Below are positions 11,515-15,959 of a stretch of DNA of 64,000 bases, piece after piece. This DNA is from Impatiens glandulifera (Eukaryota > Streptophyta > Magnoliopsida > Ericales > Balsaminaceae), in the NCBI RefSeq assembly GCF_907164915.1, contig NC_061866.1, forward strand, positions 49,528,113-49,592,112, read 5' to 3'. The position numbers and the translations under genes are program-made. Within the stretch, counting starts at the first letter, position 1. Each line of letters starts with the position of its first letter. Below the pieces are notes generated by a model that saw only the letters and a program-made list of their open reading frames with translations, was not told where the DNA came from and made no database searches.

Positions 11515-11655
11515 CTCAGCTTCCTCTGGACTTGTCTATCGCTAGGAACACCGATCAACGGCGAGGATCTACCTTTACAAATCGCGTCTTCAATGGAGAA
11601 GAGAGGAGAGCTGCTTGCTGCCGAACAAATGATTCGAGACGATGATGAATCAAAA

Positions 11656-13090
11656 GGGAAATTTGATAATATAACCCTTAAAAGAAGGGTATTTTGATTT
11701 TTAACCTTACTAATAAAGTTTTTGTTTTTTAACCTTTTTTTTAAATTTTTTCCAATTTTACCCTTAATAACCTTTTTACTTTTTTTTTTTCTTTTTTCTT
11801 TTTTTTTCTTCCTTTTCCTTTCCCCTTCTCCTTCCCCTTTTCCCTTTACTCCCCGTCTCTTCCTCTTCCTGGCGACACGGCGACACCGTCCCTCTCTCTT
11901 CCCCGGCGACACAGCCCCGCGCCACCGTCCCTCTATCTTCCTCGGCGACACAGCCCCACGCTCAACCCCTCTCTTTCCTTTGCTCAACCCTTCTCTCATT
12001 ATGACCGCATTCTTCGAAACATGGTACTTTTTGCGTTTTCTAGTTGATAGTTTGTTAAAGTGAAAGTTCTTGATATACTTTGGTTGTTCCTCTAATTCTT
12101 GCTTTTCATAAGTTATTAAGTAGTATTTAGTTAGAGTTAAAATGCTTAGTTTAGGGTTTGGGCTTTGGGCGTGGCTCTTGGGCGTGGGGCGTGGCCCTTG
12201 GGCGTGGGTCGTGGCCCTTGGGCGTGGGTCGTGGCCCTTGGGCGTGGGGCGTGGCCCTTGGGCGTGGGGCGTGACCCTTGGGCGTGGGTCGTGGCCCTTG
12301 GGCGTGGGGCGTGGCCCTTGGGCGTGGGGAGTGGCCCTTGGGCGTGGGTCGTGGCCCTTGAGCGTGGGGAGTGGCCCTTGGGCGTGGGGCGTGGCCCTTG
12401 GGCGTGGGTCGTGGCCCTTGGGCGTGGGGCGTGGCCCTTGGGCGTGGGTCGTGGCCCTTGGGCGTGGGGCGTGACCCTTGGGCGTGGGGCGTGGCCCTTG
12501 GGCCTTACTTCCCTACCCTGTTTCTGTTTTCATTATCTTCCTTCACTACTAGCTAGATACCAGTACTAATATCTAATTTGGTCTGTAAAAATAGGGAAAT
12601 ACCCAGAAAGTTATCGAGAAAGATGTCACATTTTTCTTCTGTAAAGACTCTCCTCCTCCCTGGTTCGATGGCAGGTATCCACATTTACTCTTTAATCTCT
12701 ATTAATCTTGATCATAATACTGTTTGATATTCTCAATAATAAAAAAAACTTGTATTTATTCTTCTACACATACTGCATCACTAAATTCCTTGTCATTTTT
12801 TGTTCTCGTAGTATTTCAGGAGATTTTGGATTCGACTCACTTGGATTAGGTAAGCGTGCATTTGTTTGATAGATTGAAGAAAACCAATCATATGTTAAAT
12901 GGATGGTTTGATCTCAGGATCTGATTCGGAACTGCTGAAATGGTTTGCACAAGCTGAGCTAATACACAGCAGATGGGCAATGCTTGCTGTGTCTGGAATT
13001 CTGATTCCAGAATGGCTAGAAAGTCTGGGGTTTATTGAGAAGTTCTCTTGGTACGATGCAGGAGCACAAGAATACTTCGCAGATTCCACA
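11656..13090 (+). repeat. Left terminal inverted repeat arm
   Basis: In order the arm holds an A/T- and pyrimidine-rich terminal zone (11656-11870), a G+C-richer segment (11870-12000), unique sequence (12000-12160), the 20-bp minisatellite (12164-12502), and LHCA6 exon 1 remnant, exon 2 and the first third of exon 3. Homology with the right arm stops after TTCCACA at 13090, inside LHCA6 exon 3. Confidence 0.85.
12164..12502 (+). repeat. G+C-rich 20-bp minisatellite (left arm)
   Basis: About 17 tandem copies of a 20-bp unit close to GGGCGTGGGGCGTGGCCCTT, with variants (GTC, GAGT, GTGACC) scattered among units. Because 20 is not a multiple of three, all frames read as overlapping GRGAWPLGVG-type repeats; these are not genes. 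It stands out sharply from the A+T-rich surroundings. Confidence 0.9.
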
Positions 13091-13541
13091 ACTCTGTTTG
13101 TGGTGCAATTGGGGCTAATGGGTTGGGTTGAAGGACGGAGATGGGAAGACATAATAAAACCAGGGTGCGTGGATATAGAACCGAGTTTTCCACATAAGAA
13201 GAAGCCAGAGGTCGATGTTGGCTATCCAGGCGGGCTTTGGTTCGACCCTTTGATGTGGGGTAGAGGGTCACCGGAGCCAGTGATGGTTCTTAGGACTAAA
13301 GAGATCAAGAATGGTCGGTTTGCCATGCTTGCATTCATTGGGTTTGTTTTTCAGGCAATTTATACAGGACAAGGCCCTTTAGAGAATCTTTCAGCTCATA
13401 TTGTTGATCCAGGACACTACAATGTCTTCTCGGTACTGCAACTTTCATGCTTCGATCATATTCTTAATTTTCCAGATTGAAACATCAAATTTTGTACTAA
13501 TTTTGAAAACATTTGGTTTGCAGGCTTTCACATCGCACTAG
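12595..13541 (+). pseudogene. LHCA6: LHCA6-like photosystem I antenna gene, 5'-truncated captured copy
   Basis: Exons 12595-12674, 12812-12849, 12918-13432 and 13524-13541 read in one frame for 216 codons to TAG. From SPPPWFDGS and SGDFGFDSLGLGSDSELL onward the protein follows LHCA6, the antenna protein that links PSI to the chloroplast NDH complex. The three membrane helices are present: [32 protein letters not shown] and [19 protein letters not shown]. The C-terminus NVFSAFTSH also matches. Before SPPPWFDGS the residues (GNTQKVIEKDVTFFF) do not resemble the family, a stop codon precedes the apparent acceptor, and there is no transit peptide or proper start codon. So the capture begins inside exon 1. 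The rest is open and undamaged, so capture was recent or the copy is constrained. The 5' half lies in the left inverted-repeat arm. Confidence 0.75.
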
Positions 13542-14490
13542 TGCTTGCTCTGCAGTAAGGAAGGAGCGCCAAGAATTTACATGCCAACGATGCTGTGTTT
13601 CTTCTTGTATTCTTGATTTTGTCCATTTGCAAATGTAAATATTATTTGAAAATGACCATTCGGATTATTTGTTGGTCAAATCTCGATGTGCTCTTAATGA
13701 AAAGATACGAAATTCATGCTATATTTCTATAAGTTTAAACATGGTGAAAGTTAAGCTTAAACATGGTGAAAGTGAAAACCATGATCCAACTTCAGAATTG
13801 AGCTCAAATAACATGCCTGAAATTCCTACCTAAGTCAAGTGAATTAGATGCAACTGCATAGAAACTTGACATGAGTTAGGTTACTCAAAAAAAAGATTTC
13901 TATTTGACAGAATTCAAACCACTAAATCAAAGATGAGATAAAATTATAATAAATAAAAAGATACTATGTATTATGTAACCCCTGAACTAAGGCATTGCTT
14001 GATGTTTTAATGATACTTTTCTATGAATATCTTATTTTATATAAAAAAAAATATGAAAATTAATCCAACTAAAAAATCAAAAAGTAATAAGTAATGACAA
14101 AATATATACTTCCCCTTGAAGTAAGAATCATTTTGTAGATTGTATGATATGTATATACATTATACAATATACATATGTCCAACTTTAACAATAAATGGCT
14201 ATATATGACAGGTCGTCCTCATGTTTTTCATGCCTAAACCCGAGCAAATAAATAAATGATTAATTATAGGAGGGAGATCTCTAAAACGACAAGTACAAAA
14301 TATCACACAACATTGAATCTACATAAAGAATTAACAAAATCTGAATGACTGACAGTAATTATAGCATAATAGATTATTAGTGTAGAGAGAAAGGTGGATT
14401 TAATTTGATCATCCTCCCTATCGTTTCACACGCATATCTTTCACACATGAAATGATATGGGGTTTTCCATTTTCAGAATATATATAAAGG

Positions 14491-15943
14491 TGTGGAATCT
14501 GCGAAGTATTCTTGTGCTCCTGCATCGTACCAAGAGAACTTCTCAATAAACCCCAGACTTTCTAGCCATTCTGGAATCAGAATTCCAGACACAGCAAGCA
14601 TTGCCCATCTGCTGTGTATTAGCTCAGCTTGTGCAAACCATTTCAGCAGTTCCGAATCAGATCCTGAGATCAAACCATCCATTTAACATATGATTGGTTT
14701 TCTTCAATCTATCAAACAAATGCACGCTTACCTAATCCAAGTGGGTCGAATCCAAAATCTCCTGAAATACTACGAGAACAAAAAATGACAAGGAATTTAG
14801 TGATACAGTATGTGTAGAAGAATAAATACAAGTTTTTTTATTATTGAGAATATCAAACAGTATTATGATCAAGATTAATAGAGATTAAAGAGTAAATGTG
14901 GATACCTGCCATCGAACCAGGGAGGAGGAGAGTCTTTACAGAAGAAAAATGTGACATCTTTCTCGATAACTTTCTGGGTATTTCCCTATTTTTACAGACC
15001 AAATCAGATATTAGTACTGGTATCTAGCTAGTAGTGAAGGAAGATAATGAAAACAGAAACAGGGTAGGGAAGTAAGGCCCAAGGGCCACGCCCCACGCCC
15101 AAGGGTCACGCCCCACGCCCAAGGGCCACGACCCACGCCCAAGGGCCACGCCCCACGCCCAAGGGCCACGACCCACGCCCAAGGGCCACGCCCCACGCCC
15201 AAGGGTCACTCCCCACGCCCAAGGGCCACGCCCCACGCCCAAGGGCCACGCCCCACGCCCAAGGGCCACGCCCCACGCCCAAGGGCCACGACCCACGCCC
15301 AAGGGTCACGCCCCACGCCCAAGGGCCACGACCCACGCCCAAGGGCCACGACCCACGCCCAAGGGCCACGACCCACGCCCAAGGGCCACGCCCCACGCCC
15401 AAGAGCCACGCCCCACGCCCAAGAGCCACGCCCAAAGCCCAAACCCTAAACTAAGCATTTTAACTCTAACTAAATACTACTTAATAACTTATGAAAAGCA
15501 AGAATTAGAGGAACAACCAAAGTATATCAAGAACTTTTACTTTAACAAACTATCAACTAGAAAACGCAAAAAGTACCATGTTTCGAAGAATGCGGTCATA
15601 GTGAGAGAAGGGTTGAGCAAAGGAAAGAGAGGGGTTGAGCGTGGGGCTGTGTCGCCGAGGAAGAGAGAGGGACGGTGGCGCGGGGCTGTGTCGCCGGGGA
15701 AGAGAGAGGGACGGTGTCGCCGTGTCGCCAGGAAGAGGAAGAGACAGGGAGTAAAGGGAAAACGGGAAGGAGAAGGGGAAAGGAAAAGGAAGAAAAAAAA
15801 AGAAAAAAGAAAAAAAAAAGTAAAAAAGTTATTAAGGGTAAAATTGGAAAAAATTTAAAAAAAAGGTTAAAAAACAAAAACTTTATTAGTAAGGTTAAAA
15901 ATCAAAATACCCTTCTTTTAAGGGTTATATTATCAAATTTCCC
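14491..15943 (-). repeat. Right terminal inverted repeat arm with partial LHCA6 copy
   Basis: This is the reverse complement of the left arm. Its LHCA6 pieces on the minus strand are an exon-1 remnant near 14988-14909, exon 2 at 14769-14732 and truncated exon 3 at 14663-14491. The exon 3 reading matches the left copy through EYFADST and then runs into unrelated A+T-rich DNA, so this copy is a pseudogene fragment. The minisatellite lies at about 15076-15435. Confidence 0.85.
15076..15435 (-). repeat. G+C-rich 20-bp minisatellite (right arm)
   Basis: The inverted counterpart of the left array, with about 18 copies. Variant units are arranged differently from the left array, so the two have changed length or order since they were made. 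Confidence 0.88.
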
Positions 15944-15951
15944 AATCAAAA

Positions 15952-15959
15952 TAGGGTTT
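15952..15959 (-). promoter_or_regulatory. Telo-box AAACCCTA, original U1-70K upstream DNA
   Basis: The minus strand reads AAACCCTA, the telo-box found near transcription starts of many plant housekeeping and RNA-processing genes. It directly abuts the right target duplication (15944-15951). Before the insertion it would have lain about 142 bp upstream of the U1-70K ATG; it is now about 4.4 kb away. Confidence 0.5.

Follow-up and report, generated by a model that had tools for sequence, protein, structure and literature searches.

A 64,000-nt window of the Impatiens glandulifera genome (the window being the whole stretch of DNA analyzed, which lies within contig C5 of the 654-Mb assembly searched here) holds a 4.3-kb transposable element at positions 11656–15943. 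The element consists of two long inverted arms around a spacer, and a captured piece of the photosystem I antenna gene LHCA6 is divided between them, with one half present in both arms and the other half only in the spacer. Each arm also carries a smaller piece of a second host gene, ELP6. We favor a history, at a probability of about 0.85, in which a non-autonomous Pack-MULE (a gene-carrying Mutator-like element, MULE) captured LHCA6, its right end was rebuilt as an inverted copy, the element amplified, and its arms underwent conversion. That figure covers the history as a whole; the choice between a two-step repair and a one-step origin is left between this reading and a rival weighed below. 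The features, in window positions, are as follows.

11648–11655, no strand: target-site duplication, left copy (AATCAAAA), read from the sequence
11656–13090, plus strand: left inverted arm, 1435 bp, from the arm alignment; at least 16 elements in the genome, window included
11656–11845, plus strand: terminal inverted repeat (TIR) proper of the family, about 170–190 bp, common to coding and other relatives
11973–12130, plus strand: left-arm fragment of ELP6 (Elongator subunit 6) spanning the exon 1–intron 1 boundary, from the match to locus L029 on contig C3
12158–12503, plus strand: left-arm tandem array, 17.3 copies of a 20-bp unit; related arrays in L025–L028
12515–14486, plus strand: captured LHCA6 locus segment, intron 1 to downstream of the stop, colinear with the resident locus L024
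12595–12674, plus strand: LHCA6 exon 2 remnant with a 76-bp deletion (frameshift), by comparison with the resident gene
12812–12849, plus strand: LHCA6 exon 3, by the same comparison
12918–13432, plus strand: LHCA6 exon 4, with the arm boundary inside it at 13090, by the same comparison and PF00504
13524–13541, plus strand: LHCA6 exon 5 with stop, by the same comparison
13091–14490, plus strand: spacer, the 3' part of LHCA6 and its downstream sequence, from the spacer search and alignment
14486–14491, no strand: junction of captured segment and right arm (AAAGG/TGTGG), in the same place in 13 of 13 spacer-bearing copies, with next to no microhomology
14491–15943, minus strand: right arm of 1453 bp, repeating element positions 1–1435 in inverted orientation, from the arm alignment
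14491–15065, minus strand: 5' half of LHCA6 in the right arm
15077–15442, minus strand: right-arm tandem array, 18.3 copies of the 20-bp unit, from a tandem-repeat scan
15466–15627, minus strand: ELP6 fragment, right-arm copy, an inexact match with ends good to a few bases
15944–15951, no strand: target-site duplication, right copy (AATCAAAA), read from the sequence

When positions 11656–13093 were aligned to the reverse complement of 14488–15943, 1421 of 1436 aligned positions were identical (99.0%). This confirms the near-identical reverse-complement arms described in an initial annotation of this DNA, which had proposed just such an alignment as a check, and the perfect flanking duplication it reported is likewise present, with AATCAAAA at both ends. 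The alignment contains one 20-bp indel, equal to one unit of the tandem array, and two 1-bp homopolymer indels. Their similarity stops at 13090/14491, and a separate repeat search recovered the same inverted pairs. The 20-bp arrays are GC-rich (73% GC vs. 32% GC for the window), with related arrays in several family members. No second copy of the element was found inside the window at E 1e-3.

The captured segment (element positions 860–2831) is colinear with the resident LHCA6 locus on contig C8, from the interior of intron 1 to ~0.9 kb past the stop. Spliced at GT-AG introns, the resident gene encodes an intact 260-residue protein in five exons, and none of the other matches to an LHCA6 protein in this genome combines the N-terminal exons with the rest. 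The arms of the element run from the end of intron 1 through the shortened exon 2 (76 bp deleted) and exon 3 into exon 4, the remainder of which lies in the spacer along with exon 5 and about 0.9 kb beyond the stop. The exon 2 deletion was present in every arm where the site was found. Because exon 1, with the start codon, is absent and exon 2 lacks 76 bp, the element cannot encode a full LHCA6. The initial annotation was thus right that LHCA6 exons straddle the arm boundary, but its numbering (exons 1-3a in the arms, 3b-4 in the spacer) has to be replaced by exons 2–5, with exon 4 cut. Its identification of the gene holds: a 183-aa protein of the window matches at 100% an annotated Impatiens glandulifera “photosystem I chlorophyll a/b-binding protein 6-like” and carries PF00504. 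Two annotated LHCA6-like proteins, P0001 and P0002, are in fact transposon-encoded rather than products of the resident gene (window 12899–13541); P0001 is encoded by the window copy, and the core of P0002 equals the frame of another copy, L017.

The second captured piece, which the initial annotation did not mention, spans element positions 318–475 and matches locus L029 on contig C3 with 10 mismatches in 157 positions and three gap columns. The reading frame at that locus is ELP6 (PF09807, E = 1.6e-9), and its homologues are named Elongator complex protein 6. The piece crosses the boundary from exon 1 into intron 1, and both arms have it. The element carries fragments of two host genes, LHCA6 and ELP6, and no transposase, and in the window copy the spacer is a segment of the LHCA6 locus. 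The 12 other spacers discussed below were judged by their alignment to the window spacer (some with deletions).

To place the element in the genome, we searched with the left arm (93 matches, with 40 of 617 first-look candidates scored, so that counts are lower bounds) and with the spacer (16 of 16 candidates scored). At least 16 elements, the window's included, contain LHCA6 sequence, apart from relatives that lack it, which agrees with the expectation of the initial annotation that a search would find other genomic copies: at least 15 further elements contain arm sequence. Besides 13 copies of the element, the spacer search returned the resident LHCA6 gene on C8 and two partial matches, both weak. 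LHCA6 is kept in both arms of 12 of the 13 spacer-bearing copies, with its inner limit at element position 1435; in the remaining copy, L009, one arm carries a deletion. The right-arm junction has an identical position in all 13, although L020 has base changes beside it and L015 a spacer deletion. Perfect duplications of 8–9 bp, differing from site to site, flank 13 of the 16 copies (two of them after a one-base shift of the matched end); of the others, L015 has 7 bp, L023 has none, and L021 is truncated. The same junction at 13 loci, combined with site-specific duplications, indicates that the element moved as a unit, and from its copies and duplications we judge it to be mobile as such.

These copies also bear on whether the inverted repeat is real. 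Palindromes are prone to collapsed or chimeric reads, and the initial annotation had itself raised the concern of a local assembly artefact. However, 12 other loci show the same junction of spacer and arm; together with the window's locus they are spread over seven contigs, and their flanks differ. We rejected this explanation for the family and regard its probability as negligible. A chance repeat was rejected as well, given the 15 further arm-bearing elements and the frequency of the element terminus, which at no more than one mismatch occurs 113 + 112 times in the genome vs. 0 + 0 for a reversed-pattern control.

The same terminus delimits a coding relative, L036, which is 9251 bp long and flanked by an 8-bp duplication (GTTAAATA). 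Its 700-aa frame contains PF10551, PF03108, PF04434, and PF00872 (MULE, DBD_Tnp_Mut, SWIM, and Transposase_mut), and separate frames encode DUF1985 and an Ulp1 C48 peptidase. We take L036 to resemble the MULEs with ULP-like genes, presumably of the KAONASHI type, in which DUF1985 and Ulp1 C48 accompany the transposase; unlike these, the LHCA6 element carries neither. Since an element with the same termini encodes a MULE transposase, the LHCA6 element is a Pack-MULE, and the class given in the initial annotation is upheld by this relative together with the 8–9 bp duplications and the host cargo. Target-site duplications of MULEs are typically about 8–11 bp, and lengths of 8–10 bp were also found in 19 of 25 relatives without LHCA6. 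These 25 are the measured members of 30 stretches sharing the terminus or the array (L028, L031, L033, L034, and L035 were left out). An hAT origin, which an 8-bp duplication might suggest, was rejected because of 9-bp duplications in L013, L014, L018, L019, and L022 and the MULE transposase of L036. Foldback elements have long TIRs made largely of tandem repeats; here a single array of 346–366 bp lies inside 1.44-kb arms, and the transposase of the relative places the element among MULEs.

Arm length varies widely in this family. In 19 of the 25 measured relatives, the arms start at the ends and reach 0.18 to 1.96 kb, so arms longer than 1 kb are not rare. The terminal arms of L036, by contrast with the arms of the LHCA6 element, measure 171–173 bp, and those of six further long relatives 108–182 bp, a short TIR that was not part of the initial annotation. 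On the evidence of L036 and these six relatives, the ancestral TIR is judged to be short. In line with growth of the arms, one small relative, L030, matches only to about position 327 and lacks the array. Other captures in the family lie between the arms, the usual place in Pack-MULEs: a RING/helicase gene in L044 (by domain matches) and L043 (by alignment), whose resident gene is at C4:312348–313319, and a nucleoside hydrolase piece in L048 (by domain match) and L053 (by alignment). The LHCA6 element does not have this arrangement, as part of LHCA6 and the ELP6 fragment are within its arms, and among the captures identified in the part of the 225 termini that was examined, the LHCA6 group is the odd one.

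How could a host gene come to be divided between arms and loop? The split gene gives an orientation to the element, and the order of events can therefore be read. In the history we favor, the family would be moved in trans by the MULE transposase of elements sharing its termini. A MULE with the ELP6 fragment and the 20-bp array in its TIRs would have captured about 2 kb of the LHCA6 locus, exon 2 would have lost 76 bp, and the right end would have been rebuilt as an inverted copy of element positions 1–1435. This probably happened during repair of a break near the right end, in which the right TIR would have invaded the homologous left TIR and copied inward through it and 576 bp into LHCA6, then been released and end-joined to the broken gene. 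The outcome would be one gene divided between arms and loop. The altered element would then have transposed, leaving the 16 elements found and the perfect target-site duplications at 13 of them, and later arm-to-arm conversion within single elements probably kept or reset the identity of the arms.

Several features fit this order. The right arm begins where colinearity with the resident LHCA6 locus ends, the gene part is included in the copy of the left end, and both the ELP6 fragment and the LHCA6 half are duplicated in the two arms as these grew. One junction in 13 of 13 copies, together with the exon 2 deletion in all arms with the site, means that a single duplication after capture explains the copies, in support of the proposal in the initial annotation that an inverted duplication had made the gene part of the TIRs. 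Independent inverted duplications in the two subfamilies of copies described next, A and B, were rejected on the basis of the shared junction. A 1.16-kb derivative, L022 (L022:1870–3027), has one arm to position 1431, ~31 bp of the other end, and a 9-bp duplication. Its deletion begins within 4 bp of the base of the stem-loop. It was rejected as a progenitor, as it lacks captured segment past position 1431, and is best read as a deletion with a 3-bp overlap.

With a single junction common to all 13 copies, the duplication must predate their last common ancestor as well as the split of the copies into subfamilies A and B. In subfamily A, the arms of the eight copies measured differ at 2–6 LHCA6 sites, with 1–9 left-right differences across 476–494 sites of the outer TIR. 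In subfamily B, the arms of L018, L019, and L020 differ at 14–18 of 570–575 LHCA6 sites, and L017 has 6 differences in 575 over LHCA6 but 21 in 470 over the outer TIR. L018 and L019 share left-right differences, 7 in LHCA6 and 14 in the TIR. Had the arms diverged independently since the duplication, left arms would be expected to cluster with left arms. In a tree of the arms, the 17 A arms form one clade (support 99/97) in which left and right are mixed, and a clade of all left arms (12 left vs. 13 right arms) was rejected by the approximately unbiased test (p-AU 1.7e-9), which indicates that the arms of subfamily A have been homogenized. In the LHCA6 part, all 17 A arms share the derived state, judged against the resident gene, at four sites where no B arm has it; six sites of the TIR part are fixed between A and B; and no site in either part separates A left from A right arms. 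The uneven left-right differences across A and B, L017 included, suggest that homogenization was episodic and patchy. Arm similarity therefore dates the last homogenization or amplification and not the inverted duplication. The inference of the initial annotation that near identity marks a recent event did not survive, because the duplication precedes the A/B split and the A arms were homogenized; the rest of its interpretation, a Pack-MULE with LHCA6, an inverted duplication, and other copies, stands. At about 2.5 private changes per kb, the burst of subfamily A looks young, and we assign it no age in years.

A number of observations count against this history. The arm tree is poorly resolved (2 of 26 branches starred), and its bootstrap had not settled. 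Sorting between A and B is not clean everywhere, as five A-fixed sites are polymorphic in B. Crossing-over between arms flips the spacer and swaps the left and right labels, and alone mixes arms in a tree, yet it does not explain derived sites fixed in both A arms. A joined-flank search of this one assembly for the empty site found only the filled site (55 bases of the left flank also match contig C1, weakly). None of the 13 spacer-bearing copies is an intermediate with LHCA6 between ordinary arms; the capture and the inverted duplication could therefore have coincided in a single event, and with next to no microhomology at the junction, the repair route cannot be read from the sequence. This leaves room for an origin in one step, in which the polymerase left the LHCA6 template at capture and switched inversely onto its own new strand or a sister copy, making both TIRs at once from one end without LHCA6 ever lying between ordinary arms. 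Such a switch fits the data nearly as well as repair does, since both ends are copies of one end and the missing intermediate is what it predicts. Still, we consider it rather unlikely: the 76-bp exon 2 deletion, being in both arms, must have preceded or accompanied the switch or have spread by conversion, and L043, L044, L048, and L053 carry a gene between ordinary arms, which keeps the two-step route open.

The captured LHCA6 piece probably did not come from the gene now on C8. We compared the resident gene with the state shared by the subfamilies (the majority of 8 A and of 4 B copies, leaving out L015 and the spacerless copies). At noncoding sites, 106 of 1282 differ, and exon 4 has 4 nonsynonymous (N) and 12 synonymous (S) changes. 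Under neutral descent from the resident gene, N changes should dominate, and 4 N : 12 S does not fit; N changes are too few for neutral capture (p = 0.001 if the parent constraint is taken as 0.1). At one of the four differing amino acids, the element has A and the resident gene E, and because 4 of 5 other species have A, E looks derived in the resident gene. The RING/helicase capture served as a control. Two copies compared with their resident locus differ from it at 21 of 934 ungapped sites (2.25%), with 13 N : 6 S, as expected of a direct parent. A direct origin from the C8 gene, with the differences arising after capture, has in its favor that this is the only intact full-length LHCA6 among the protein matches and is colinear with the captured piece. 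However, the noncoding divergence, the exon 4 ratio, and the behavior of the control make it improbable. The source was more probably a diverged LHCA6, either a lost paralog or another lineage, a point absent from the initial annotation. The 6.4% divergence of the ELP6 piece fits a diverged donor, although that piece is too short for the test.

Among the copies themselves, coding changes amount to 33 N : 11 S against 398 : 115 sites, which looks neutral, and selection for the LHCA6 reading frame is unsupported. The count covers 9 of the 13 spacer-bearing copies (L009, L012, L015, and L020, with incomplete or gapped exon 4, were left out); L013, one of the nine, contains a stop and was excluded when copies were compared with the resident gene.

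Long double-stranded RNA could form from the arms, and silencing is no more than a possibility. Transcription of such a mobile hairpin might yield double-stranded LHCA6/ELP6 RNA and small RNAs that would silence the element, and perhaps the resident genes as well, in the way suggested for Mu killer. In line with this, 576 bp of LHCA6 lie in inverted arms in 12 copies, and the arms of subfamily A are kept alike. Window-arm 21-mers exactly match the resident LHCA6 transcript at 61 (left) and 75 (right) positions, and perfect 21-mers from all arms cover 211 of 783 resident coding bases. Private LHCA6 changes in A arms are mostly C>T/G>A (19 of 24, vs. 14 of 25 in the spacer), an excess that may faintly hint at methylation. 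Yet the resident frame is intact, coding changes among copies look neutral, and conversion between inverted repeats needs no selection for a hairpin, so we regard a silencing role as doubtful. More speculative still, and in our view very improbable, is a broader scheme in which the family turns host genes into self-homogenizing mobile hairpins: captures would be fused into the TIR by inverted repair, conversion would preserve the duplex, small RNAs of many copies would match photosystem I antenna and Elongator genes, copy number would be linked to host expression, and the LHCA6 donor lineage would be gone from the genome.

Among known systems, the element resembles Pack-MULEs in its MULE termini, 8–9 bp duplications, intron-containing host gene fragments, and multiple copies (PMC3310237). 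It departs from them in that one half of LHCA6 is present in both arms and the other half in the loop, with a second gene piece in the arms, and it goes further in that arm homogenization could be traced across copies. Since that account allows for extended TIRs, cargo that does not lie wholly between the TIRs marks a variant of the class. Turmoil-1 of C. elegans similarly has two host-gene fragments (rsp-2 and cpg-3) within long inverted terminal repeats, but it belongs to the Harbinger superfamily, has 760-bp repeats with the gene fragments inside them, and is known from one complete copy and eight fragments (PMC2572040). Mu killer of maize, a MuDR derivative, has both TIRs from one end and an inverted partial gene duplication, as the LHCA6 element does; there, however, the gene is the transposase and the locus a silencing one, whereas here it is a host gene in many copies (PMC3440606). 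The TIRs of Galileo in Drosophila were lengthened by adjacent internal sequence in inverted orientation and by tandem repeats, and its longest TIRs are in non-autonomous copies, but it is of the P superfamily and recruited the transposon's own sequence and not host genes (PMC3573991). In the titles and abstracts of the open-licence literature, we found no Pack-MULE family in which a host gene lies partly in the arms and partly in the loop. Each feature thus has a precedent, and what is new, as far as this search shows, is the combination of a split host gene, a second arm-borne gene piece, amplification, and traced homogenization.

The element shows how transposon ends can grow, and it touches on the open questions of how MULEs acquire long TIRs and genes. 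One TIR family presents side by side short TIRs on coding relatives, classical captures, and an arm-fused capture. It also cautions that arm identity, which is used for judging the age of elements, can report homogenization instead of birth. If the arms yield small RNAs, they would offer a natural system for transposon-borne silencing of a photosynthesis gene.

Some smaller observations concern individual elements. The window insertion splits a short open frame, read by eye, which would run from an ATG ~60 bp upstream to just past the duplication (11593–11655, 15944–15954). At one end of L010, the terminal stretch is followed in tandem by another of ~178 bp (L010:890–1245). This copy apparently transposed with its tandem TIR in place, since its target-site duplication is located beyond the outer unit; two termini also stand in tandem in L034. 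L025, L026, and L027 have arms of 1.5–2.0 kb that combine several modules with GC-rich arrays, and they contain an Ulp1-like fragment. The flanks of L048 and L049 are reverse complements of each other, so that a single insertion on C3 may have been copied in inverted orientation to give both. Finally, several pieces of the RING/helicase capture lie within 7 kb of a small contig (C171:97644–104456).

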